A DNA stretch of 37,727 nucleotides from IMG/VR virus record IMGVR_UViG_3300037339_000802, positions 1 to 37,727 of that record; one strand, written 5' to 3'. Positions 6,444-37,727 of this stretch are shown piece by piece. The notes beneath the pieces were generated by a model. It ran no database searches, was not told the origin of the DNA, and saw only the letters and a program-made list of their open reading frames with translations. Position 1 is the stretch's first letter. Each line of letters starts with the position of its first letter. The DNA comes from a virus. A program made the translations under genes and the position numbers.

Positions 6444-8575
6444 CACACCCCCTCGCTTTCTGCCTTCATGACGGCGATCGTCATGCACCTGCACCGCGCC
6501 TCGGTCCCCGCACAGTCGGGATTCGGCGTCAAGTAGTCAGGGTCGTTGACGTCGTGGTGTTTCCCGTCGCGCGAGTGACAAAAGTCGCACGCGTTGCCGT
6601 CGAGGATGGCGGAGTAGTAGCAGTACTCGACGTCTTCGCTCACGTCGTCGAAGCCCGACTGCCGCCCGGTCCCCCACCCGCCGTTGACGGCCCCCGATGC
6701 CATGGCCTCCCACGTCGCCATGCTCATCTCGGCGGCCTCGGTTTCGAGGGCGACCCTCAACGACTCGCCCACGGCCCCCGCCTTCTTGGCCGACAGCGAC
6801 GCCGACGCGAGGGTCGTCTTGAGCTTGTCGCCCGCACCCTCGACCCACAACTGCAACTGCTCGTCGTACAGGTCGACGACCTTCTTCGGCCGCGACTGTT
6901 TCTTCGACACGGCCAGCGTCGACCGCTGGCGCCTGACCTCGTCCTGCACCTGCGCGCGCCCGACGGAGAACTGCCGGTCGAACTCCTTCCGCAGGGCCTC
7001 GTACATCTCTTTCTTGAGGACGACGCGGATGTCCTGCGGGCGCCGGCCGGCGACCAACTGGTTGACGATGTCCTGCGCCTGCGCCGTGCGCATGCCGAGG
7101 ATCCTGTCGGTGAGGGTCGCCGACGCGTCGGACAGTTGGAGCCCGTACCCCACGTAGTCGACGGTCTGTTCCTCGGCCGTCGGCGCGCGGTCGGCCAGCG
7201 TCATCCGTCCGTGGTCGTGGGCGTGGGCCTCCATGTCGTCCTGCGTCTCGTCGACGGTCGGCTCCTCGACCGTTTCGTCGTCCGATTCCTCGGCTACCGG
7301 TTCGTCGTCCCCAGTGTCCTCGACGACGGGCTCCTCGACCTCCTCGGCCTCGACGGCGTCGGGGAGGTGGAGTTGCGACCGCACGGCGGCTTCGAGGACG
7401 GCGTCGGGCTTGATGATCTTCGCGTCGACGAGGGTCTTGAGGACCGTCGGGTCGAGCGTCCTGATCTTCGCCGCCTTGACGATGGGGTACGCGTCGACCG
7501 TCCAGTTGTAATCGACCCACTCGCGCACGAGGTACCGGGTGAGGACCTGCGCGACGTAGTCGGCCGACGCCTGCAGGCTCATGAGGAAGACGTCGATGAA
7601 CGACCCGCCGAGGGCGCGGCTCCCAGTCTCCGACGTCCCGAGGTTGATGAACATGGCGAGGACGGCCTTCGCGATCATTTCGTCGTAGTACTTGATCGAC
7701 GGCAGGGCGTCGGTCCCGCCCTCCGACCCACCGCCGCCGAGGAGCGACACCTCGTACCCCTCGGGCTCCATGACGTACGCTTCCTCGTTGGCGTACAGGC
7801 GCCGCAGGGATTCCTCGGTCTGCCGCCATTCCTCGGAAGCGCGGTCGATGCCCGCTGGCACCTTCGCCTTCGGGATACCGACGCCGTGGCGGTCGTGCTT
7901 GATGGCGTTGATCTTCTCGAGGTTGTTCTTCACGAACCACGCTTTGTAGGCCGCCCGCAGGACGGACTGCCCCTCCCAGTTGTCGCCCTCTTTCTCGTTC
8001 GTGAAGACGAGGCACTTCTCGATCGGCAGGAAGTATTCCTTGCCCGAGTTGTCGCGTTGGACGATGTTCACGAGCCCGCCGTCCGCGCCGAGTTCCCACC
8101 GCACGATCGACTGCGGCAGGCGCGGGTCGAGCTTCTTCGGCATGACGAGGCCGTCGCGCAGTTCCCACACCTTCTCGAGGACGCTGAACCCGAAGGGGAA
8201 CATCAGGAGGGCGTGCCGCACGGTGTCGTCCCACGTAATCGACATCTCCTCCATGAGGCCGCGCTCGATCGTGTTGGCGATCTCGACGTCGCGCGCGTCT
8301 TCACTGGCCGGCTCGATGGTGTACGGATTCTGCCTGATCGGCAGTGCGATGGCGTTCGAGACGGCCTTGACCTGCGGGTCGCTCCGGCGCATCTCGTCGA
8401 AGATCGTCCGACCCGCGATGCCGTCGAGCTTCCGCAGGTACTCGCCCGTGTCCATGTACCCGCTCACCGTCGGCGCGTTGCCCGACACACCGACGACGGC
8501 CTTCGCCCCCGACGTCGGCGGCACCGACAGGCGCAGGGCGCGCGTCTCACTGACCCGACCGCTGTCCGTTCCCAT
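6443..8575 (-). CDS. Portal protein fused to a MuF-like minor head domain (710 aa)
   Basis: The N-terminal two thirds match Mu gp29-like (DUF935) portal proteins: DEMRRSDPQVKAVSNAIALP, PFGFSVLEKVWELRDG, KYYDEMIAKAVLAMFINLGT and GSFIDVFLMSLQASADYVAQ. The portal is the twelve-fold ring at the capsid vertex through which DNA enters and leaves. A very acidic linker follows (about residues 400-450). The last part ends with DGNACDFCHSRDGK (around 660) and ARCRCMTIAV, the Cys-containing end of MuF/gp30-type minor head proteins. The two are usually separate genes in Mu. The ATG at 8575 shares a base with the terL stop (TAATG) and follows GAGG. Confidence 0.88.
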   Translation of the reverse strand: MGTDSGRVSETRALRLSVPPTSGAKAVVGVSGNAPTVSGYMDTGEYLRKLDGIAGRTIFDEMRRSDPQVKAVSNAIALPIRQNPYTIEPASEDARDVEIANTIERGLMEEMSITWDDTVRHALLMFPFGFSVLEKVWELRDGLVMPKKLDPRLPQSIVRWELGADGGLVNIVQRDNSGKEYFLPIEKCLVFTNEKEGDNWEGQSVLRAAYKAWFVKNNLEKINAIKHDRHGVGIPKAKVPAGIDRASEEWRQTEESLRRLYANEEAYVMEPEGYEVSLLGGGGSEGGTDALPSIKYYDEMIAKAVLAMFINLGTSETGSRALGGSFIDVFLMSLQASADYVAQVLTRYLVREWVDYNWTVDAYPIVKAAKIRTLDPTVLKTLVDAKIIKPDAVLEAAVRSQLHLPDAVEAEEVEEPVVEDTGDDEPVAEESDDETVEEPTVDETQDDMEAHAHDHGRMTLADRAPTAEEQTVDYVGYGLQLSDASATLTDRILGMRTAQAQDIVNQLVAGRRPQDIRVVLKKEMYEALRKEFDRQFSVGRAQVQDEVRRQRSTLAVSKKQSRPKKVVDLYDEQLQLWVEGAGDKLKTTLASASLSAKKAGAVGESLRVALETEAAEMSMATWEAMASGAVNGGWGTGRQSGFDDVSEDVEYCYYSAILDGNACDFCHSRDGKHHDVNDPDYLTPNPDCAGTEARCRCMTIAVMKAESEGV

Positions 8576-10074
8576 TACCACCTCGCCTCGCGGAACCCGG
8601 CCGTGACGGGCTTCAAGTCGCCTTCGTCGGCCGGGCGCACCGATGCGGTGCCCTGTCCCATGAAGTACCCGCCCGCCGTCGCGTCCAACTGGTCATCGTG
8701 GGTACCATGGGGCGCTTCGGCCATCTCGTCAAGGTACTCAGCGTTCCAATCGCCTTCGACGACGTAGAAGTTCCCCGCCTCGACGACGGCCATGAGCGGT
8801 TCCCACCGCACGACCTTGTCCGTCGTAGGGACGATCGGCTGGACCGTGCGCGTCCCTTTGAACAGTTCACGGAAGCGCGTGAGGGTGTCCTTGTACCCCG
8901 CCACGCACTCGAGGCCGATGCGCACGCCGCGTCCGTCTGTCTCGGCCACGGCCCGGATCCGGCGGTCGCGCTCGGGGGCTTCCCACCGTCCGCGGTACGA
9001 AGTGGCGACGTACACGACGGGCTCAGGCGGCAGACCGTTCGCCCGCGGGCGCTGGACGGTCGCCATGAGGACGCCCGCCGTGTAGTCGGGGTCGTCCTTC
9101 GCCACCTGCTTCGTCGAGGAGGCGACGTCCCAACACCGAACCCACCGCAGGCCGCTCGGGACGGACGCCTTCTTGATCGTCTTCACCCGGTCGACGCGGA
9201 AGAGGTTGCCCGTCACGGCGACTGGCTCCTGTTGCATGAGGCACGCGAAGCCGACCGACCCGAGGGTCGCCTTCTGCGCCTCGTACCACTCGCGCGGGAA
9301 CCGTTCGGGGAACAGGACGCCCCCGGGGTAGGCGTCGTCCATCGCCGGGAACTTGATGACCTCGAAGTGCGGGAACTTCTCATCGGCGGCCATGGCCTTC
9401 TGCAGGCGCCCCACAGGGTCGTCCTTCCCCCACCGTGTCGTCAAGACGATCGTGACGGCCACGGGCGCCCGCCGGGTGAGGAAGTCGTTGCGGAACGACT
9501 CCCATACGAGGTTCCGCGTCGACTGCGACTCGGCCTGATCTTTGTTCTTGAAGAAGTCGTCGACGAGGCCGAGGGCGTACCCGCGGCCGCTCATGCCGCC
9601 CCCGAAGCCCACGGCGCTCATCAGTCCGCCCCTGCCCTCGATCGACCACCGGGCCGCCGCGGCCGACTCCGACGACACCTCGACGTCGGGCGCCCACGCA
9701 CGGAAGGCCTCGCCGTTGACGATCGTGCGGGCCGACCGCGACAGCGTCGTCGCGAGGTCCTGCCCGTACGTCGCGAGGAGGACCTCCGTCGACGGGAACA
9801 GGCCGAGCCAGTGCGGTGGCAGGGTCCGCGACAGCAGTTCACTCTTGCCGTGGCGGAAGGGGACCGTGACGACGAGGAACGTCGACCGCCCCTCGCGGTA
9901 CTCGGTGATCGCCCGGTCGATGCGGTCGCAGATGACGCGCGTGTGCCGACCGACGACGAAGGGCTCGGAGTGGTTCCACACCGACCGCACGAAGTCGAGG
10001 TGCCCCATGGCACGCTTCGAGGCCTCGACGCGGTAGTGGGCCGCGATCCTACCGAGTCCGTCGGGCGCCGGCAT
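8575..10074 (-). CDS. terL: Terminase large subunit (499 aa)
   Basis: This is the ATP-driven motor and nuclease that packages DNA through the portal. The Walker A motif is VPFRHGKSE (about residues 71-79), Walker B is LVDDFF (170-175), and a coupling motif TTRWGKDD follows near 212-219. The C-terminal RNase H-like nuclease shows WDVASS (Asp near 316) and HDDQLDA (Asp near 461 and 464). The length is typical. The start is uncertain. ATG 10074 is the most reasonable, but 10110 and 10014 are also in frame, and the gene begins inside terS. Neighbours are terS upstream and portal downstream. Confidence 0.92.
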   Translation of the reverse strand: MPAPDGLGRIAAHYRVEASKRAMGHLDFVRSVWNHSEPFVVGRHTRVICDRIDRAITEYREGRSTFLVVTVPFRHGKSELLSRTLPPHWLGLFPSTEVLLATYGQDLATTLSRSARTIVNGEAFRAWAPDVEVSSESAAAARWSIEGRGGLMSAVGFGGGMSGRGYALGLVDDFFKNKDQAESQSTRNLVWESFRNDFLTRRAPVAVTIVLTTRWGKDDPVGRLQKAMAADEKFPHFEVIKFPAMDDAYPGGVLFPERFPREWYEAQKATLGSVGFACLMQQEPVAVTGNLFRVDRVKTIKKASVPSGLRWVRCWDVASSTKQVAKDDPDYTAGVLMATVQRPRANGLPPEPVVYVATSYRGRWEAPERDRRIRAVAETDGRGVRIGLECVAGYKDTLTRFRELFKGTRTVQPIVPTTDKVVRWEPLMAVVEAGNFYVVEGDWNAEYLDEMAEAPHGTHDDQLDATAGGYFMGQGTASVRPADEGDLKPVTAGFREARW

Positions 10075-10567
10075 CGGCTTCGTCGACGCCCGCCTTCGCG
10101 AGCAGGGCACCGAAGGTCTTCAACTCCGCGTCGGAGAGGCGCGAGAGGTCGCCGCCCGGTAGCGCCACGGACCCCGACAGCCGCGCGTCCTTGACGTCCC
10201 GCCACCGCTTCGGCAGTCGGTTCTTGAGGAAGAAGATGACGGCCGTCGGGTGCGGGGCGATGCGCTTCCGCACGACGCGGACCGTCTCGGCCCCCACGTC
10301 CTTCCCCTTGACCCGCCTCCGCTCCACCTGCGTCTCGGTCGCCTCGTACCCGGTCGCGAGGGTGAAGAGCGCGGCCTCGACCTCGGCGTTCGGCTTCCGC
10401 TTGCCCTCTTTTACGGCCTCCGCGAAGTCCGCGTGCCGTTTCTGCCACTCGTAGAAGGCCGTCTTGCGGATGCCGAGGGCCCGAGCCATCTCCTCGTCGG
10501 TATGCCCCTTGCGCGCGAGGTCGCGCACCGCCTTTGGGTGGACCTTCGCATTGTACAGCGTCTTCAT
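10049..10567 (-). CDS. terS: Terminase small subunit (172 aa)
   Basis: The N-terminus holds a helix-turn-helix (VRDLARKGHTDEEMARALGI, then RKTAFYEWQKRHADFAEAV). The next part, EGKRKPNAEVEAALFTLATG, and a later block with IFFLKNRLPKRWRD are typical of terminase small subunits, which recognise the packaging site and load the large subunit. The gene directly precedes terL, which starts inside its 3' end. The ATG at 10567 follows the ParB-like gene by a few bases. No cohesive-end site is visible to me. Confidence 0.87.
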   Translation of the reverse strand: MKTLYNAKVHPKAVRDLARKGHTDEEMARALGIRKTAFYEWQKRHADFAEAVKEGKRKPNAEVEAALFTLATGYEATETQVERRRVKGKDVGAETVRVVRKRIAPHPTAVIFFLKNRLPKRWRDVKDARLSGSVALPGGDLSRLSDAELKTFGALLAKAGVDEADAGARRTR

Positions 10568-10571
10568 GGCG

Positions 10572-11234
10572 TCACTCGCCTTTCTTGTGCGCGAGCTTCA
10601 ACAGGTAGACGAGGACGCGGCCGAGGGCGACCTCCTTCGGCACGCGCTTCTTGACGAGCGTCTCCGAGAGGCCTGCCAGACGGTGCTCGACCGTCGGCCA
10701 GTCGCGCTCGGCGATGCGCATCGCCACGAAGTGGTACTCCCCGTCGTCCTCTTCGGCCTCGCCGCCGACCTTCGCCGGTTCCCACTGGACGTCGGCGATG
10801 GCGATGAGCTCGTCGATCTCGTGCTGGGCCATGTCGACGCCCGCGAAGTCGTCGCCGGCCGCCTTGAGCTCGGCGAGCAGTTTGCCGAGTTCGATCTTTT
10901 CGGCCTCCCAGCGCGTCTCGTTCATGACGACCGTCAGACGCTTCGCCTGCGCCTCGGTGAGGCCCGTCAGGACGTTGACCGACACCGCCCGCCACCCGGC
11001 GTTCTTCGCGGCGATCCACCGGTGCTCGCCGTCGAGGATCTGCCAGTACCCCTTCTTCCGCGGGTGCAAGCGGACCGTCACCGGGTCGACGAACCCGTAC
11101 GACTTGATTGACGCCTCGGCCGCGGCGATCGTGTCGGGAGCCATGCGGTTCGGATTCCACGGGTTGGCGACGAGCTTCCCGATGTCGACGCGACGAACGT
11201 CGACGTGGACGGCCGACCCGTTCACTTTGCCCAT
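10572..11234 (-). CDS. ParB-like nuclease-domain protein (220 aa)
   Basis: The protein carries the ParB/sulfiredoxin-like fold motifs: a region with VDIGKLVANPWNPNRM, then IKSYGFVDPVTVRL and WQILDGEHRWIAA (DGEHRW at 68-73, the nucleotide-binding motif). Phages often encode such proteins beside terminase or next to 7-deazaguanine DNA modification genes. The role may be DNA binding, nucleolytic or regulatory rather than partition, as no ParA is present. I chose ATG 11234 over 11255 because GGAGGGG lies six bases before it. It overlaps the DpdA-like gene by 13 nt. The C-terminal part ends VYLLKLAHKKGE and is helical. Confidence 0.8.
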   Translation of the reverse strand: MGKVNGSAVHVDVRRVDIGKLVANPWNPNRMAPDTIAAAEASIKSYGFVDPVTVRLHPRKKGYWQILDGEHRWIAAKNAGWRAVSVNVLTGLTEAQAKRLTVVMNETRWEAEKIELGKLLAELKAAGDDFAGVDMAQHEIDELIAIADVQWEPAKVGGEAEEDDGEYHFVAMRIAERDWPTVEHRLAGLSETLVKKRVPKEVALGRVLVYLLKLAHKKGE

Positions 11235-12016
11235 ACGATGCCCCTCCTCCGCCACACCTCGGAGACGTGGCGCTCGACCGCCCGTGCCTTCCTGATCTTG
11301 TCACCAGTGAAGACCTTATTCAATCGCCCGGTCATCTCGGCCGTGTTCGTCACGCGCCACCCGCCGTTCTTCGTCATGTCGAGTTCGTGGGCGAAGTACG
11401 GCCCGCGGCGCTCGAAGTACAGCCACGCCCGCGAGTCGGCCGACCACACCGGCCACCGCGTCGCGGCCCACTCGTTGACGAACCCGAACCAGTGCAGGCG
11501 CGGCATCTGCCCAGTGCGGCCCCACTGCGCGTACACGTGGTGGTAGACGCGGTCGAACCACGCCGCGATCTCCCGCCGGCGCGTGGCGTGGGGGACGAGG
11601 CCCCCGAGGGCGATGCGTCCGTACTCCTTGACGACGGCGGAGACGGCCCGGTCGTCGGCCCCGTACGTGACGATCGGCATGGGGGAGAGCCCGCGGCGCT
11701 CGAGGGCCCGCTGATTGCGCCGCGTGCCGTCTTGGTCGCCCATGACGTCGAGGTTCGCGTACTCGAAGGCACACCCCGCCTTCCTGCACGCCGCATCGAC
11801 GTCGCGGACCCACGCCGCGTACGAGGCAAGGTCGACGGCCTTCCCCTTCGTCGCCGCCGTGAAGGCCCCCGAGTCGACGAACAGGTGCGTGACTTGCGAA
11901 CCGAGGCGATCGACGAGGGAGTTGAAGTCTTCTTTGTAGGCGAACGACACGAGGATCGCAGTCAGGAGACGGGAGCGGTCGAGGTACCCGGCCGCCCCCG
12001 CGAAGTAGACGATCAC
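11222..12016 (-). CDS. dpdA: DpdA-like DNA (or tRNA) guanine transglycosylase (264 aa)
   Basis: This protein resembles phage and defence DpdA proteins, the branch of tRNA-guanine transglycosylases that swaps guanine in DNA for a 7-deazaguanine base. Visible motifs are HLFVDSGAFTA (Asp near 48), YANLDVMGDQDGT (88-98), MPIVTYGAD, IALGGLVPHA (substrate loop), LHWFGF (175-180) and VWSADSRAW near 190, which matches the SxDSxxW pattern of the family. The GTG at 12016 overlaps the queC stop (GTGA). The neighbouring queC and yhhQ genes strengthen the call. The length of 264 is short for a full TGT but fits phage DpdA-type proteins. Confidence 0.75.
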   Translation of the reverse strand: MIVYFAGAAGYLDRSRLLTAILVSFAYKEDFNSLVDRLGSQVTHLFVDSGAFTAATKGKAVDLASYAAWVRDVDAACRKAGCAFEYANLDVMGDQDGTRRNQRALERRGLSPMPIVTYGADDRAVSAVVKEYGRIALGGLVPHATRRREIAAWFDRVYHHVYAQWGRTGQMPRLHWFGFVNEWAATRWPVWSADSRAWLYFERRGPYFAHELDMTKNGGWRVTNTAEMTGRLNKVFTGDKIRKARAVERHVSEVWRRRGIVWAK

Positions 12017-12666
12017 ACGTAGTGCGCCAGAGGTCCGTCGACGACGCCCGCTTCCGCGAAGGCCTCGTCGCGCTCGACGCACGTCCCGCACACGCCGCAC
12101 GGCCGATCGCCGCCGGCGTAGCACGACCACGTCTTCGCCATGCGTAGGACGCACGGCCGCCCGAGGCGAGCGCCGGCCCGCACGATGGCCGCCTTCGTCA
12201 TGCGCGCGAAGGGCGCCTCGACGACGACCTTCCCGTACGTCCCGAGCCGGGCCGCCCGCGACAGGGCGCGCACGAATCCGCGACGGCAGTCAGGGTAGAT
12301 GGCGTGGTCGCCCGCGTGTGCCCCGTACCACACCCGCTGAGCCCCGACGGCCTCGGCGTACGCCACGGCGAAGGCCAGCATGACGCCGTTGCGGAACGGC
12401 ACGACCGTCGAGCGCATCGACGGGTCGTCGTACCGACCCTCGGGGAGTGGGACGTCCTTGGACATGAGGGCCGACCCTCCGCTGGGGAGCATGAGGTCGA
12501 CGGTCGTGAGGTACGGGTACAGTTCGTGGGCCGACCGGGCCTCGGCCGCGTCGTGCCTGCTCCCGTAGTGGAAGCGCACAGTGATGAGATCGTGGCCCTC
12601 GGCCTGCAACCAGTCGTGGAGGACGAGCGAATCGAGGCCGCCCGAGACGACGACGACGCCCCGCAC
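12013..12666 (-). CDS. queC: 7-cyano-7-deazaguanine (preQ0) synthase QueC (217 aa)
   Basis: QueC turns 7-carboxy-7-deazaguanine into preQ0 using ATP and ammonia. The PP-loop ATP-binding motif SGGLDS is at 8-13, and the C-terminal zinc site has four Cys (near 182, 190, 193 and 196) in SCYAGGDRPCGVCGTC, as in bacterial QueC. VVPFRNGVMLAFA and YGAHAGDHAIYPDCR are also characteristic. The length of about 220 is normal. The start is GTG at 12666. The gene lies between the transporter and the DpdA-like gene. No QueD, QueE or GCH1 is encoded in this window, so precursors would come from the host or medium. Some phage QueC relatives make other 7-deazaguanine derivatives. Confidence 0.9.
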   Translation of the reverse strand: MRGVVVVSGGLDSLVLHDWLQAEGHDLITVRFHYGSRHDAAEARSAHELYPYLTTVDLMLPSGGSALMSKDVPLPEGRYDDPSMRSTVVPFRNGVMLAFAVAYAEAVGAQRVWYGAHAGDHAIYPDCRRGFVRALSRAARLGTYGKVVVEAPFARMTKAAIVRAGARLGRPCVLRMAKTWSCYAGGDRPCGVCGTCVERDEAFAEAGVVDGPLAHYV

Positions 12667-12669
12667 CGT

Positions 12670-13389
12670 TCAGCCCCACTTCATCGGCGACCACGACCGG
12701 GCGCCGACGACGTCGAGACCTTCGACGCGCTTCGTCGCGTTGACGACGAGGTACGTCACCGGGGTCATGACGACCTCGACGGCGACCTTGAAGACCCACT
12801 GCCACAAGACCATGGCGAAGACAGCGGACAGCGGCATCGTGAACAGGAAGGCAGCGACGACGAAGAGGAGTGAGTCGACTCCCTCGCCGACGACCGTCGA
12901 CGAGATCGTCCTCACGAAAAGAAAGCGCCCTGCCGGATCCCAGCGTTGCATGAGGACCTTGAGCTTCGCAAGGACGAACGAGTTGGCGAACTCGCCCGCC
13001 CAGTACCCGATCATCGAGGCAATGACGATGCGCGGCACCTGCCCGAGGATCCTCACGAGGGCCGCCTGCCCGTCCCAAAACGACGCCGGAGGCAGGACGA
13101 TCGCCATGAGGAAGGCGAGGACCATGACGACGTTGGCCCCCATGCCGAGCCAGATGATGCGCCGTGACCCCTCGTACCCATACACCTCCGTCAGTACGTC
13201 GCCGAAGATGTACGTCACGGGGAACAGGAACACGGCCGCGGTCAGGACGATCGGCCCGAGGACGATGAGCTTGACGGCGACGACATTCGACGCGAGGAGG
13301 CACGTCACGAACAGGGCAAGGTACACGGCGTACAGCTTGGACCGCCCCTCGATCCCAGCCGCCGGGTCCGTCTTCATCGCATCTGACAC
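12670..13389 (-). CDS. yhhQ: Queuosine-precursor transporter, YhhQ/VUT family (239 aa)
   Basis: This is a multi-pass inner membrane protein (about six membrane segments, starting near KLYAVYLALFVTCLLASNVV). The family signature is FPVTYIFGDVLTEVYGYEGS, and it also has YWAGEFANSFVLAKLKVLMQ and RTISSTVVGEGVDSLLFVVA. YhhQ proteins import queuosine precursors such as preQ0 and preQ1. The GTG at 13389 follows GGGAGAGGG by 7 nt; ATG 13377 is the alternative. The length is usual. It is the first gene of the 7-deazaguanine set and is followed by queC within four bases. Its presence suggests the phage raises precursor supply by uptake. Confidence 0.9.
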   Translation of the reverse strand: MSDAMKTDPAAGIEGRSKLYAVYLALFVTCLLASNVVAVKLIVLGPIVLTAAVFLFPVTYIFGDVLTEVYGYEGSRRIIWLGMGANVVMVLAFLMAIVLPPASFWDGQAALVRILGQVPRIVIASMIGYWAGEFANSFVLAKLKVLMQRWDPAGRFLFVRTISSTVVGEGVDSLLFVVAAFLFTMPLSAVFAMVLWQWVFKVAVEVVMTPVTYLVVNATKRVEGLDVVGARSWSPMKWG

Positions 13390-13393
13390 TCTG

Positions 13394-13897
13394 CTACCCT
13401 CTCCCTTCTCGCCGACGTTGCGTGTCGGCCTTCCACCGGGCGATGAGGGCCGCGTCGACCTCGTCGGCCGTCGACGCCCGCAGTCCCCGTGTCCGGTTGA
13501 TGTACGCGACGTACGCCGCGTTCTTGCGCATCGCCCGCTCGCCCGCGGACAGGTGCGACTTCCACGCCCGAGGGTTGACGACTTCGACGTCCCACCCCCG
13601 GGCCCACGCCTCGGCATACACGATGCCGCGGACCTCCGCAAGGACGGAGATCGACGTCGCCGCCTGCCGGTAGATGCCGTCCTCGACGACGACGACGACC
13701 CGGTCACGTCGGTCGGCGCCCACCGCCACCTCGCCGAAGATGCGCCGCACGCCACCGGCCACGTACCGCAGGCGCGCGACGCGTTCCTTCACCTCCTTCG
13801 GCACGACGACGGCCCGCGTCTGCGCGACGACCGATTGGTCCTCGACGATGGCGACGCCGAGGGAGTGCGACCCGGGGTCCACGCCGACGATGGTCAT
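13394..13897 (-). CDS. RuvC-like Holliday junction resolvase (167 aa)
   Basis: The RNase H-like fold starts with MTIVGVDPGSHSLGVAIV (first catalytic Asp at 7). VVVVEDGIYRQAATSIS then supplies a Glu, followed by LAEVRGIVYAEAWARG. The C-terminal STADEVDAALIARW supplies the paired acidic residues, as in RuvC. Such phage enzymes resolve branched DNA before packaging, which fits the ERF recombination system upstream. The ATG at 13897 overlaps the previous stop (ATGA). The length of 167 is close to RuvC (about 170). Confidence 0.85.
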   Translation of the reverse strand: MTIVGVDPGSHSLGVAIVEDQSVVAQTRAVVVPKEVKERVARLRYVAGGVRRIFGEVAVGADRRDRVVVVVEDGIYRQAATSISVLAEVRGIVYAEAWARGWDVEVVNPRAWKSHLSAGERAMRKNAAYVAYINRTRGLRASTADEVDAALIARWKADTQRRREGRG

Positions 13898-23313: not shown

Positions 23314-23385
23314 TGGCAGGGGTGGGGATCGAACCCACGACTTCCGGATTATGAGTCCGGTGACCTCCCGCTGGTCCACCCTGCT
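23314..23385 (-). tRNA. tRNA with anticodon CAT (Met or lysidine-Ile type)
   Basis: A full cloverleaf of 72 nt folds: acceptor AGCAGGG/CCCTGCC (first pair A-C mismatched), D stem GACC/GGTC with loop AGCGGGA, and anticodon stem CCGGA/TCCGG with loop CTCATAA. The T stem is GTGGG/CCCAC with loop TTCGATC, and the discriminator is A. CCA is not encoded. The anticodon stem lacks the GGG/CCC of initiator tRNA, so an elongator Met or Ile2 tRNA is likely. Its 5' half overlaps the end of the transglycosylase gene. Confidence 0.9.
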
Positions 23386-24002: not shown

Positions 24003-24298
24003 GCGGGCTGTCCCTTGTCGAGGACGGTCAGCTTCTCGGCCACGGTGACGAGCGTATTCCCGCCGTTCGTCCCCTCGACCCACAGCGTCCACACGCCAGC
24101 CGTGTCGTTCTGCGCCCCCGTGACGTCGTAGTGCCCCTCGCCAGCCGGCGCGTCGTCGATCGTCGCCGGCGTCCACGTCCCTTGCGTCCCGTCGGGCTTC
24201 TGGTACCCAACGCTGAGCGTGTATCCCGTCAAGTTGACGGAGACACCCTGATCCTCGACGGTGAACTCGTACACGTACGACTGCCCTTTGACCTTCAC
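23999..24298 (-). CDS. Small Ig-like / BppU-type tail accessory protein (99 aa)
   Basis: GTG 24298 is seven bases behind GGAGG and overlaps the fibre stop (GTGA). The fold pattern is beta-sandwich: YVYEFTVEDQGVSVNLTGYT, LSVGYQKPDGTQGTW, then DVTGAQNDTAGVWTLWVEGT and VTVAEKLTVLDKG. This resembles BppU N-terminal or small Ig-like domains of baseplate and fibre assemblies. It probably attaches to or sits beside the fibre encoded upstream. Confidence 0.6.
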   Translation of the reverse strand: MKVKGQSYVYEFTVEDQGVSVNLTGYTLSVGYQKPDGTQGTWTPATIDDAPAGEGHYDVTGAQNDTAGVWTLWVEGTNGGNTLVTVAEKLTVLDKGQPA

Positions 24299-26529
24299 GG
24301 CGTCACCTCCGTCTGTCTGACGCGCAGGACGACGGGCTCGCGCTCGTCCCACTCGAGGGTTTCGACCTCCGTCAGCATGTCCCGCAACGTCACGACCTCG
24401 AACGGAGAGGCCACGAGGCGCTTCCGCTCGAACCGCGACCACCATAGCACGACGGCCTCGGTCTGTAACGGGGCGGTACCTGTGAAGACGATCGGCTCCC
24501 CGAACGCCTCCGCACTCGCGATCCCACCCACGACGGCGATCGACGCCGAGAGGTCCGGCACCCCGAAGACCTCACCGCTGGCGATCGCCCCCACGCCACT
24601 GACGACGACCCCGACGCCCGGCGTCCCCACGGCGCCGGCGCTGGCGATCGCCCCCGCCCCCGTGATCGACGCCGCGACCGACGGACTGCCGAAGGCTTCC
24701 GCTCCGGCGATCGCCCCTGCCCCGGTGATCGACACCGCGACCGACGGGCTCCCGAACGCCTCCGCGCTCGTGACGTTCCCGACGGCGGCGACGTTGACGG
24801 TCAGCGTCGGATTGCCGAAGGCCTCGGCACTGGCGATCGCCCCGACGCCAGAGACGTACCAGTCGCCCCCGACGACGGTGACGGTCGGCTCCCCGAATGC
24901 TTCCCCGCTCGCGATTCCCCCGACGGACGTGATCGCCACGGAGACGCCCGGCGTCCCGACGGATTCCCCGCTCGCGATCGCCCCGACGCCCGCGATCGTC
25001 GCCGCGACCCCGGGTGTGCCGAAGGCGCCGGCGCTCACGATCGCCCCGACGCCCGCGATCGACACCGATACGCCAAGCGTTCCGAAGGCCCCCGCACTGA
25101 CGATGGCGCCAGCACCAGCGATCGTCGCCGCCACCGACGGCGTCCCAACAGCCTCCGCGCTCGCGATCGCCCCGGCCCCCGCGACGTTCACCGACGCCGA
25201 TAGCGTCCCGAACGCTTCCGCGCTCGCGATAGCCCCGACGCCGCTGATGTCGTGATCGCCACCGACCTCGACGTACGGCGCCAGCGTCTCGCCGAGGAAC
25301 GCGTCGAGGCTGAACGGAGCCGGGACGCCGCCAGCAATGAACCACTCGCGCAGAAAAGCGTCGAGTCCAAAGGGAGCTTCCGCGGTAGTGGACGTGTCCT
25401 CTGCGTCATGTACGAGTGAACTGATGCTCAAATCAAACGAGTCGAAATCTATCGTCGTCCCCGGATTGTACGGAGAACTGTACGCGTTGCCGAAGCGCAG
25501 GTAATCGGGTTCTCGCGTCGAACCCGCCAAACTCCCCGAGTCGATCGCCGCGCCGAGGTCCTCATCGGTGCTGAGGTACCACGCGTAGGTTGCACCTGTG
25601 GTGTCGTACTTGATTCCGAAGTGGTACCAAGTGTTCGCAGCTATGTTCTGCGCCGTGCCCGTCACGTCGCCGTTGTCGTAATATTCGAGGTTGACTGTTA
25701 GTTGCGTCCCGGTTTTCGTGACATAGAGGGCCGAGCAATTGTACCCCGACGGATTGTAAATGCCCACCGGGTAGATGTAGTTGCCGTCAGCCAAACCGTC
25801 GGTACTGATCTTAAACCACCCGGCGAGGTACGCGACGTCGCTGACAGCCGCGGGTTGAATCGCGTAGTACTCTGACGAAAGGCCAGTCATCCTCTCGCAA
25901 TAAGCACTGTCGCCGTGCGATCCGCCAGCGACGAACGAGTGGGTGGGAGAACCCGTCAGCGTCCAGCTCTGGTCGTGCTCATTCTCAAATCTCTCAAATG
26001 CCGTCGTCCATTCGATCGTCAACGTTTCGGCGGCAACGGAGTTGAAGCGCATATAATCGCCCGACGTATCTTCATCTGACCACAGGCAGATGTTGATGTA
26101 GTCCCCGCTCTCCAACTGGTCGCCGGCATCTGAATCTATCGCGATGGCAAGGTCTGCCGCGAGGTCAATCTCGCGCGTCTCCCCAGGTCCGAAGCAATCT
26201 TCCTGATACACCCACGCGGTTTCGATCGAAGCCCTCGCGTCAGCCCACGCCGCCGCATTTGGTTCGTTCGATCCGCTCCACACCGCCCACGTATTTTTCT
26301 GCACCCTCACGGCAACCTTCACGGTCGTGTTGCTGTCGGGCGTCCCGTGCAAGTACATGTGCAGAATGGTGTCGGCTTTTTTTATAGTCGGTCCGTCGTA
26401 CAGAAACGACAGACCACCGATGATGTAGGACCCGCCTATATTTCCGGCAATGGCAGGGTCGCCGCCCTCCCACGTCCCGAGGTAATCAGTCCCATCTACT
26501 GCCGCAGCAGTCGGTCCCCACGTCGGCAC
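24295..26529 (-). CDS. LamG-like tail fibre with 12 GVGAIASAEAFG repeats (744 aa)
   Basis: The N-terminal part (about 1-160) is beta-rich, with GGSYIIGGLSFLYDGPTIKK. A concanavalin/LamG-like domain follows (about 185-360: LAGWFKISTDGL, AANTWYHFGIKYDTTG, YLRFGNAYSS), likely for glycan binding. Twelve repeats of about 21 residues (around 425-680) each carry a GxGAIxSAEAFG core. The C-terminus (WWSRFERKRLVASPFEVV) is a separate tail. Codons in the N-terminal 1.1 kb are visibly richer in A+T than the rest of the genome, suggesting acquisition. GTG 26529 follows GGGGAGGGG. It is a host-recognition or accessory structural protein. Confidence 0.72.
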   Translation of the reverse strand: MPTWGPTAAAVDGTDYLGTWEGGDPAIAGNIGGSYIIGGLSFLYDGPTIKKADTILHMYLHGTPDSNTTVKVAVRVQKNTWAVWSGSNEPNAAAWADARASIETAWVYQEDCFGPGETREIDLAADLAIAIDSDAGDQLESGDYINICLWSDEDTSGDYMRFNSVAAETLTIEWTTAFERFENEHDQSWTLTGSPTHSFVAGGSHGDSAYCERMTGLSSEYYAIQPAAVSDVAYLAGWFKISTDGLADGNYIYPVGIYNPSGYNCSALYVTKTGTQLTVNLEYYDNGDVTGTAQNIAANTWYHFGIKYDTTGATYAWYLSTDEDLGAAIDSGSLAGSTREPDYLRFGNAYSSPYNPGTTIDFDSFDLSISSLVHDAEDTSTTAEAPFGLDAFLREWFIAGGVPAPFSLDAFLGETLAPYVEVGGDHDISGVGAIASAEAFGTLSASVNVAGAGAIASAEAVGTPSVAATIAGAGAIVSAGAFGTLGVSVSIAGVGAIVSAGAFGTPGVAATIAGVGAIASGESVGTPGVSVAITSVGGIASGEAFGEPTVTVVGGDWYVSGVGAIASAEAFGNPTLTVNVAAVGNVTSAEAFGSPSVAVSITGAGAIAGAEAFGSPSVAASITGAGAIASAGAVGTPGVGVVVSGVGAIASGEVFGVPDLSASIAVVGGIASAEAFGEPIVFTGTAPLQTEAVVLWWSRFERKRLVASPFEVVTLRDMLTEVETLEWDEREPVVLRVRQTEVTP
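24485..25250 (-). repeat. Twelve tandem ~63-bp coding repeats
   Basis: This is the coding stretch for the 12 repeats of the LamG-like fibre. Each unit holds a GCGATCGCC-like core on one strand or a close variant, with GAxGC(C/G)TTCGG nearby. The periodicity is about 63 bp (21 codons), with one longer unit near 24860 (GGDWY insertion). The units are diverged rather than identical, so the array is old or repeatedly shuffled. Confidence 0.7.
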
Positions 26530-35828: not shown

Positions 35829-37727
35829 CTACGCTCCCGCCTCGAGGAAGTGGACGCGGGCCCCGGTCCCGAGGTACGCCTCGATGCCCTCGACGGTGAA
35901 CTTCCCGATCTGCACCATGCCGCCCTCGCCGACGACCGGCCCCTCAAAGATTTGCGTCACGTAGATGTCGGGCACCTGCTGGATCGTCGTCGACGACCCG
36001 GGGCTGGATCCACCGGTCCCCGTCGACTCCGTGGCGACGTCTTCGATCGTGATGGGCTTCAACATCCCCGACTCGTCGGCCTTCCACGAGATGTTCTTGA
36101 TCTTCCCCCACTGGAACGTGACGATGTAGAAGATCAGCGTCCCGAGGGCGCCGAGGAACGTGAAGATCGAGATGAGGGCGTTGGCGAACGGGACGATGGC
36201 CTTGTTGTACAGCCACACGAAGGCGTCGACGATGAACTCGATGACCGGCCCGAGGGCCGTGAGGAGCGGCATGACGATGGCCGCCAGCACCCGTCCGACG
36301 ATCGTCAGGATGTTGACGAGGGGTTGGAGGAGCGTGTTGATGACCGGCCCGAGGACGTCCATCATCGCTTGGAAGATCGTCTGTAACGGGCTCAACAGGG
36401 CCATGACGTTGGTGAGTTGCATGAACGCGTCGATGAGGGGCTGCATCGGCCCGAGGAGCTTTTGGAAGAAGCTCCCGATCCCACCGCCGCCTTCACCGCC
36501 GCCGCCCATCGACGACCGCAGGAGACGCTGTTCCTCGAAGGGTTCGTTGGTGACGGCCCGTTGAGCGGCGTTCGCCTCGGCCGCCGCCGCGGCCGCCGCC
36601 TGCTCTTCTCCCTTCGCCTCGCGCGCCAGTTCGGCCAGTTCCCGGGCGACCATCCGACCGTACGCCCCCTCGTACCCGACCCCGCCCACCCCGGCCCCGC
36701 CGCCCGCCCCACCGCCGCCGCTCGCCTGCACGGCCCTCATCGTCGCCTCGATCGACTCGGCTGGCCTCCGCCAGATGTCGATCATCTGCCTTACGTCCTC
36801 GGCCATGCTCGAGAAGAAGTCCTTTGACTGCTGACCCGCCGTCTGCCAGATCGACTTCAAGGTGTCGCCGAGGGGCTGACGCTCCGACCGCTGGTAGTCG
36901 ACGCGGCCGAACGACGTCCCGGCCAGGCCACCCCCGAGGACGCCGCCCGAGAGCTTCGACAGCCCAGCGCCGATCTTCTGCAACAACGATTCCGCCTGCT
37001 GGATGAGCCAGTTGAGGACCGTGACGAAGAACGACTTGATGGCCTCGATCGTGTCGTGGAAGGCGTACTCGATCGGCGCCCACAGGGTCTTCGCGACGGC
37101 CCCGACGAGTTGTGCCGCGAGCTTCATCGTCCCGTAGAACAGTTCGTACCCCCACGTCGATACCTTCGCGACGGTCAGCACGGCCTTGATGATGACGTCG
37201 ACGCCCGCCGCCGCCCACGTGCCGATCTGGTCGATCATGTCCTTGTTGGCCGTCACCGCGATGTACTGCTGGGCGATGACCTCCCCGATCTTCTCCTTCT
37301 GTTCGTCGAAGAGGTTCGAGATCGCCTGCTGGCGTCCGTACACCGTCTGCATGACGGCCTCGGTGACGCTCCCGTACGTTTCGGCGACGTACCGGATCGC
37401 GTCGCCCGACTTCAACTGCTCGTCGGTGAACGATCGCAACTGCGGCAGGAACCTCCCGAGCGTCCCCGTGCTCCCCTCGTACGACGCCCCGAGGCCGCGG
37501 ACGGCAGTCTCGAGTGGGACGATGCCAGTCGAGGCGAGCCCGATGGCCGCGTCCATCGTCTCCTTCATCTGCTTCTCGGTGAGGTCCATTCCCGCGAGGA
37601 GGATGAACCCGCTCTCGATCTGATCGTCGGTGAAGATCGTCGTCCGTTGCATCTCGTCGGAGTACGCCTTGAGGGCGAAGACCGTCGCGTCGGTCGCCTG
37701 CGTGTTGGCGTTGAGGACGGCCGTCAG
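35829..37727 (-). CDS. Tail tape-measure protein, C-terminal part (632 aa visible; runs off the right edge)
   Basis: The frame is open to the right edge (37727). The first visible region, LTAVLNANTQATDATVFALK, EMQRTTIFTDDQIESGFILL and KEAMDAA-like helices, matches the classic N-terminal block of siphophage tape measures. The middle is long, helical and alanine-rich with hydrophobic spans (WAAAGVDVIIKAVLTVAKVS, MDVLGPVINTLLQPLVNILT). These fit a protein that sets tail length and crosses the host membrane. The end (VGEGGMVQIGKFTVEGIEAY) precedes the tail-tip gene. Together with the fragment at 212-1 the protein would be at least about 700 residues. Confidence 0.85.
   Translation of the reverse strand: MTAVLNANTQATDATVFALKAYSDEMQRTTIFTDDQIESGFILLAGMDLTEKQMKETMDAAIGLASTGIVPLETAVRGLGASYEGSTGTLGRFLPQLRSFTDEQLKSGDAIRYVAETYGSVTEAVMQTVYGRQQAISNLFDEQKEKIGEVIAQQYIAVTANKDMIDQIGTWAAAGVDVIIKAVLTVAKVSTWGYELFYGTMKLAAQLVGAVAKTLWAPIEYAFHDTIEAIKSFFVTVLNWLIQQAESLLQKIGAGLSKLSGGVLGGGLAGTSFGRVDYQRSERQPLGDTLKSIWQTAGQQSKDFFSSMAEDVRQMIDIWRRPAESIEATMRAVQASGGGGAGGGAGVGGVGYEGAYGRMVARELAELAREAKGEEQAAAAAAAEANAAQRAVTNEPFEEQRLLRSSMGGGGEGGGGIGSFFQKLLGPMQPLIDAFMQLTNVMALLSPLQTIFQAMMDVLGPVINTLLQPLVNILTIVGRVLAAIVMPLLTALGPVIEFIVDAFVWLYNKAIVPFANALISIFTFLGALGTLIFYIVTFQWGKIKNISWKADESGMLKPITIEDVATESTGTGGSSPGSSTTIQQVPDIYVTQIFEGPVVGEGGMVQIGKFTVEGIEAYLGTGARVHFLEAGA

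Follow-up and report, generated by a model that had tools for sequence, protein, structure and literature searches.

We report that four adjacent genes of the IMG/VR record IMGVR_UViG_3300037339_000802, an uncultivated virus sequence of 37,727 bases that is the single record for its lineage (hereafter the window), probably form a salvage-type 7-deazaguanine DNA-modification cassette, a variant of the dPreQ0 cassette of phages. The genes overlap or nearly touch on the minus strand at 10572-13389, and encode YhhQ, a queuosine-precursor transporter of the YhhQ/QPTR family (COG1738, Vut_1; 12670..13389, GTG start, 239 residues); QueC, the synthase of preQ0 (7-cyano-7-deazaguanine; 12013..12666, GTG start, 217 residues); a DpdA-type DNA-guanine transglycosylase (11222..12016, GTG start, 264 residues); and a ParB-like protein with a ParB/Srx N-domain, the proposed partner of DpdA (10572..11234, ATG start, 220 residues). 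This arrangement had been described in an original prediction made from the letters alone, with which the coordinates and the independent family models (Pfam, TIGR and PHROG) used to identify the four proteins agree; the E-values of our own hidden Markov models (HMMs) for DpdA, QueC, ParB and YhhQ are circular, as the window proteins are in the alignments, and were not used as evidence. From the four gene identities, the absence of FolE, QueD and QueE, the conserved DpdA active site and the finding of such gene sets, YhhQ standing in for these three enzymes, in many other phages, all supported by sequence, we infer the following steps. Through YhhQ, more of a 7-deazaguanine precursor, synthesised by the host or by other cells, would be available inside the cell; QueC would convert the precursor CDG (7-carboxy-7-deazaguanine) to preQ0; DpdA, with the ParB-like protein, would swap guanine in the phage DNA for preQ0, giving dPreQ0; and the dPreQ0 DNA would resist host restriction.

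The importer and the early synthesis genes were found to avoid each other when IMG/VR was scanned with QueC and, separately, with the short-DpdA clade, and the loci were compared by gene content. First, among the 80 loci of the short-DpdA scan, 67 have YhhQ without FolE/QueD/QueE, 12 have FolE/QueD/QueE without YhhQ, and none has both. Second, after pooling all sets and isolates and removing duplicates, the 129 DpdA loci comprised 68 with YhhQ only, 57 with FolE/QueD/QueE only, three with neither and a single one with both (Streptococcus virus MS1). Third, clustering the DpdAs at 50% identity gave three clusters with YhhQ only, 26 with FolE/QueD/QueE only, one with both and one with neither (Fisher p=0.0035, the lineages behind the test being not fully independent, and the QueC scan having required QueC). 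Fourth, seven YhhQ-type phages, checked over their entire records of up to 47 kb, have no FolE, QueD or radical-SAM (S-adenosylmethionine) gene. On these gene contents, YhhQ and FolE/QueD/QueE are mutually exclusive beside DpdA, the importer replacing the early pathway, and it is this recurrent salvage variant, with an importer where the first three enzymes of the synthesis would be, that is new; YhhQ had been noted in phages in 2019 without correlation to any phage group (PMC6884629), and is rare among isolated phages (7 of 50,697 records). The 67 YhhQ-type loci include 32 with QueC, 26 with a gene that we call ORFx, and six with a DUF6884 gene. The salvage-type loci are mostly of one DpdA clade in IMG/VR, whose few genome matches are rumen and gut bacteria.

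The window itself has no match at E<=1 to the models of FolE (PF01227), QueD (PF01242) or radical-SAM proteins (PF04055) across its 37.7 kb, and no match there to HMMs made from phage FolE, QueD and QueE, in agreement with the early enzymes having been called absent. Together with the grouping of DpdA and the essential residues of QueC described below, this absence supports the earlier proposal of a 7-deazaguanine DNA-modification cassette dependent on outside precursors. There is an appreciable, though less than even, chance that the supply is largely domestic, i.e. that CDG and preQ0 come from the queuosine synthesis of the host itself, the phage only boosting the QueC step and YhhQ adding outside preQ0, with the DNA still being modified. 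A complete queuosine pathway is found in many DpdA-phage hosts (PMC6884629), and the host of the window phage could have QueD and QueE. Yet YhhQ specifically replaces FolE/QueD/QueE, suggesting that external supply matters; the portal relatives of the window point to actinobacterial phages (a hint only, as for the terminase relatives), and the pathway is missing from mycobacterial hosts (PMC6884629); and a Lachnospiraceae metagenome-assembled genome (completeness and binning not assured) with a YhhQ-type cassette has neither QueD nor a second QueC, a weak hint towards precursor import.

Turning to the transglycosylase, the sequence comparisons support the view that the 264-residue protein belongs with phage and bacterial DpdAs, and not with the tRNA enzymes, because its active-site residues are kept, a DpdA profile reaches only a DpdA structure, and the Pfam model of tRNA-guanine transglycosylases (TGTs) misses it. 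First, it matches phrog_887 (E=2e-24) and keeps D48-S-G-A, D90, G138-G139, H175 and D194-S195 in alignment A1 (the window protein and 15 phage DpdAs), i.e. the Asp of DSGA, the second Asp, the GG, the His and the nucleophile Asp of S-x-D-S; D48, D90, G138, H175 and D194 are invariant in these 16 sequences, and D48, D90, H175 and D194 in the 39 sequences of alignment A5. Second, the sole match of the 39-sequence profile to all PDB sequences is the bacterial DpdA crystal 7UI4 (E=1.2e-4), no tRNA TGT being reached although the library includes many TGT chains. Third, the window protein has no match to the Pfam TGT model at E<=0.1, and its pairwise comparison with the E. coli TGT gave no meaningful alignment. 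Identity is 33% to a phage 9g-type DpdA (pairwise) and only about 25-30% to the phage DpdAs in alignment A1; the phage DpdAs form a subgroup separate from bacterial DpdA (PMC6884629). The DpdA2 identity (nt-1 type), defined by loss of the conserved histidine at position 196 (PMC6884629), is ruled out by the invariant histidine, kept as H175.

The original prediction spoke of a divergent DpdA of only 264 residues. The divergence stands: the window protein forms a long branch of its own, with no supported sister, in the tree built from 59 DpdAs, and IMG/VR scans with the window DpdA or YhhQ as single-protein query returned no close relative (alignment A1 having no stretch conserved enough for scanning, QueC and rumen-type DpdA served as queries instead). 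The length does not, as it is ordinary for this subgroup, whose members have about 240-317 residues (277 in Mufasa8, 267 in phiFN37, about 240-250 in rumen phages and 317 in the 9g type), and the unusual feature is the divergence.

The predicted structure of DpdA is compatible with its assignment and, taken alone, also with a role on tRNA. The AlphaFold2 model (predicted local distance difference test, pLDDT, 83.8) has a TGT-type barrel fold; Foldseek gave no match at E<=0.001, its top ranks being unrelated barrel enzymes, and VIA-align, run as a second look after this uninformative ranking, gave Z scores of 14.5-15.5 over 219-232 residues to archaeosine TGT, bacterial TGT and DpdA 7UI4. The comparison with known DpdA that had been called for thus finds a fold shared with 7UI4 (Z 14.5), and also with tRNA TGTs; this match to the model fixes the TGT/DpdA fold, not the substrate. 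One may then imagine that the enzyme acts on tRNA, the phage enriching host tRNA in queuosine or a related base so that its own proteins are better translated, and the nearly tied scores of the archaeosine tRNA TGT (Z 15.5) and of 7UI4 agree with it. We regard this role as very improbable, and reject it, since the family models, the PDB profile and the E. coli TGT comparison are negative, only the fold being common: the protein has just two cysteines, both in its first third, and therefore no C-terminal zinc-site cysteines, and an E. coli tgt mutant is not complemented by the phage 9g DpdA (PMC6884629). A placement with tRNA-acting enzymes, which had been named as a refutation, was not seen by profile, family-model or pairwise comparison. 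We therefore retain the DNA-acting assignment, under which the window DpdA would insert 7-deazaguanine into DNA.

QueC matches PF06508 (E=7e-52) and the preQ0-synthase equivalog TIGR00364 (160.2 bits, cut-off 150.3). The SGGLDS loop, VPFRN, YPDC and the four zinc cysteines are all present (alignment A3), and so are all the residues essential in E. coli QueC, namely the Tyr of YxQxHxxE, the Arg of VPxRN, the Tyr of YPDC and a Tyr of the zinc region (PMC13329287). A QatC identity was rejected, the equivalog model scoring 11.8 bits against a cut-off of 280. These scores also bear on the idea that protein deazaguanylation is the joint task of QueC and its TGT-fold neighbour, which would then resemble Cap9/Cap10 of type IV CBASS (cyclic oligonucleotide-based antiphage signaling system) or QatC and act for or against immunity. 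Cap10 is indeed among the fold matches of the DpdA model (9ntn, Z 14.9) and the PADLOC QueC model gave a match to P0002, but we give this idea the smallest chance of all those considered: QueC stands above the preQ0-synthase cut-off and far below that of QatC, sequence searches with its companion reach phage DpdA families and 7UI4, no nucleotidyltransferase partner was found among the window genes scanned, and phage relatives have the full preQ0 pathway beside the same two genes.

The window YhhQ matches PF02592 (E=1e-46; 159.5 bits, cut-off 27.2) and TIGR00697 (95.1 bits, cut-off 50.95), and would transport a 7-deazaguanine precursor. In E. coli, preQ0 transport requires YhhQ (PMC5372724), whose substrates are preQ0 and preQ1 (PMC5372724; PMC11130926), and transporter specificities vary within the YhhQ/QPTR family (PMC11130926). 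A QueC beside the importer may imply a precursor upstream of preQ0, i.e. imported or host-made CDG, and not simply imported preQ0; QueC is kept in about half of the YhhQ-type loci, and for these the precursor may be CDG. A bolder and rather doubtful extension is that the QueC-linked phage YhhQ variants import CDG, a substrate unrecognised for the family. If so, the phage would scavenge CDG leaked by neighbouring bacteria and finish it with QueC, to obtain DNA armour even in hosts without 7-deazaguanine synthesis. The YhhQ tree partially agrees with the transporter type tracking QueC presence: it requires 13 label changes for QueC presence versus 22.8 in shuffles (near-copies inflate this support), one subfamily being cleanly split into QueC-plus and QueC-minus sister clades, and another being mixed. 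The YhhQs of the L084 type form separate QueC-plus (12) and QueC-minus (7) sister clades, hinting at different substrates.

The ParB-like protein matches PF02195 (ParB_N; E=3e-11, 43.8 bits, cut-off 26.3), and among isolated phages it is closest (36%) to the ParB that neighbours DpdA in Arthrobacter phage Mufasa8, where the DpdA-then-ParB order is the same. In the DpdA scan, ParB adjoins DpdA in 54 of the 54 YhhQ-type loci that include the upstream side, and in all 11 comparable de novo loci; the de novo loci of the QueC scan have it in 27 of 33 cases, and the 9g-type phages examined have no ParB next to DpdA. For the same gene of mycobacteriophage CRB2, a function like that of DpdB has been put forward (PMC6392294); PADLOC gave no DpdB match at E<=1, the presence of a DpdB model in its library being not verified. 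The ParB-like gene is thus a standing neighbour of DpdA, and we propose its protein as a functional counterpart of DpdB, though it is not demonstrably DpdB. Two tandem DpdA genes stand beside ParB in Microbacterium phage Nicole72 and in two other loci (L074 and L097), perhaps as a heterodimer or as two specificities.

As for the final base, HMM searches of the window found neither ORFx, a QueF-Like gene, nor a DUF6884/DpdC-like gene, and the predicted base is therefore dPreQ0, the base of Rosebush and CAjan DNA (PMC6884629). ORFx occurs in 26 IMG/VR loci (L103:7414-7725 and 25 others) between QueC or DpdA and YhhQ; it encodes 101-116 residues, has no significant Pfam or PHROG match, and has the fold of QueF-Like archaeosine synthase (5jyx, Z 14.9, 22% identity) with an invariant Cys23. 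Going by this modelled fold, the ORFx phages may carry dG+ or dPreQ1. The DUF6884 gene is found in Fusobacterium phage phiFN37 (L021:7586-8020) and in six IMG/VR salvage loci; the phiFN37 protein matches PADLOC DpdC models, which suggests dADG as the base of these cassettes.

Several points weigh against our interpretation. The cassette is known from sequence, and the search for its host through genome contigs matched gut and rumen genomes of the other DpdA lineage. In Mycobacterium phage Orion, DpdA stands by itself and the DNA is unmodified (PMC6884629), so that DpdA can be silent without supply. The pairing of YhhQ with QueC is not fully explained, QueC being redundant if YhhQ imports preQ0, and the approximately unbiased test (AU, p=0.112) neither establishes nor rejects one common origin for the DpdAs of the YhhQ type. 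Finally, the YxQxHxxE motif of QueC reads YGSRHDAA in the window (Q->S and E->A, with the Tyr and His kept); comparable S variants are seen in some YhhQ-less phages. These two substitutions and the missing early genes could mean that the four genes are the decayed remnant of a full cassette, non-functional without FolE, QueD and QueE. Such decay seems very unlikely, slightly less so than a role on tRNA, because the four frames are intact and coupled with their catalytic residues kept, an importer is among them, and many phages have the same set. A functional salvage-type cassette thus remains our preferred explanation.

The window can be compared with known systems as follows. It shares DpdA, QueC and the predicted base dPreQ0 with the de novo dPreQ0 phage cassettes (Rosebush/CAjan group; PMC6884629), from which it differs by lacking FolE, QueD and QueE and having YhhQ. 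The B-cluster mycobacteriophages (Saguaro and Quesadilla) have the same ParB-DpdA-QueC block adjoining the terminase. The Arthrobacter phages Mufasa8 and Sonali have the QueCs that are 46-48% identical to that of the window, and Mufasa8 the nearest ParB, but in them QueD, QueE and FolE are present, YhhQ is missing, and the cassette is away from the terminase. Similarly to the window, phiFN37 has ParB, DpdA and YhhQ without FolE/QueD/QueE (in a ParB-DpdA-DUF6884-YhhQ block); unlike the window, it lacks QueC and has the DpdC-like gene, and its DpdA is just 18% identical to the window DpdA. Streptococcus virus MS1 shares DpdA, QueC and YhhQ (YhhQ being 35% identical), but adds QueD, QueE and FolE to them and has no ParB neighbour. 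The bacterial dpd island (dpdA-dpdK, S. Montevideo), about 9% of which have YhhQ (PMC11888242), shares the DpdA chemistry and a ParB-superfamily partner, DpdB, whereas its DpdC and restriction genes (dpdC and dpdD-K) were not found in the window, where the neighbours are YhhQ, QueC, RuvC and terminase/structural genes.

The cassette genes are separated by a few bases, with a largest overlap of 13, have no internal stops and a GC content at third codon positions (GC3) of 0.90-0.93, and form a coupled head-to-tail string that continues into the terminase small subunit TerS directly downstream (10049..10567, minus strand; phrog_309, E=3e-41), the large subunit TerL (8575..10110, minus strand; phrog_38, E=8e-70) and the portal. 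A RuvC-like resolvase lies directly upstream (13394..13897, minus strand; phrog_159, E=1e-19; PF02075, E=1.5e-7). The cassette is also directly upstream of the terminase in 14 salvage loci with a detectable terminase relative (including L095 and L100), a placement common to the window, these loci and the B-cluster mycobacteriophages. Among the terminase relatives whose upstream sequence is available, the nearest (L189, 55% identity) has no cassette, and the cassette therefore looks like an accessory module. The left end of the record (3-212) resembles the N-terminus of a tape-measure protein and the right end (35829-37727) the remainder of the same gene, and therefore the record probably is a circularly permuted genome, almost complete and broken inside the tape-measure gene. 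The window also has a tRNA-Met (CAT) gene (23314-23385, minus strand) and a 744-codon minus-strand open frame (24295-26529) with no PHROG match, which is perhaps not a true gene.

Phage 7-deazaguanine modification has been pictured as either full synthesis by the phage or reliance on host precursors. The replacement of FolE, QueD and QueE by YhhQ beside DpdA, as read from gene content, defines a salvage strategy, and raises the questions of what YhhQ carries, why half of the cassettes keep QueC, and whether the ParB-like protein is the phage counterpart of DpdB. It also means that the DNA armour of a phage may hinge on a nutrient released by other microbes.

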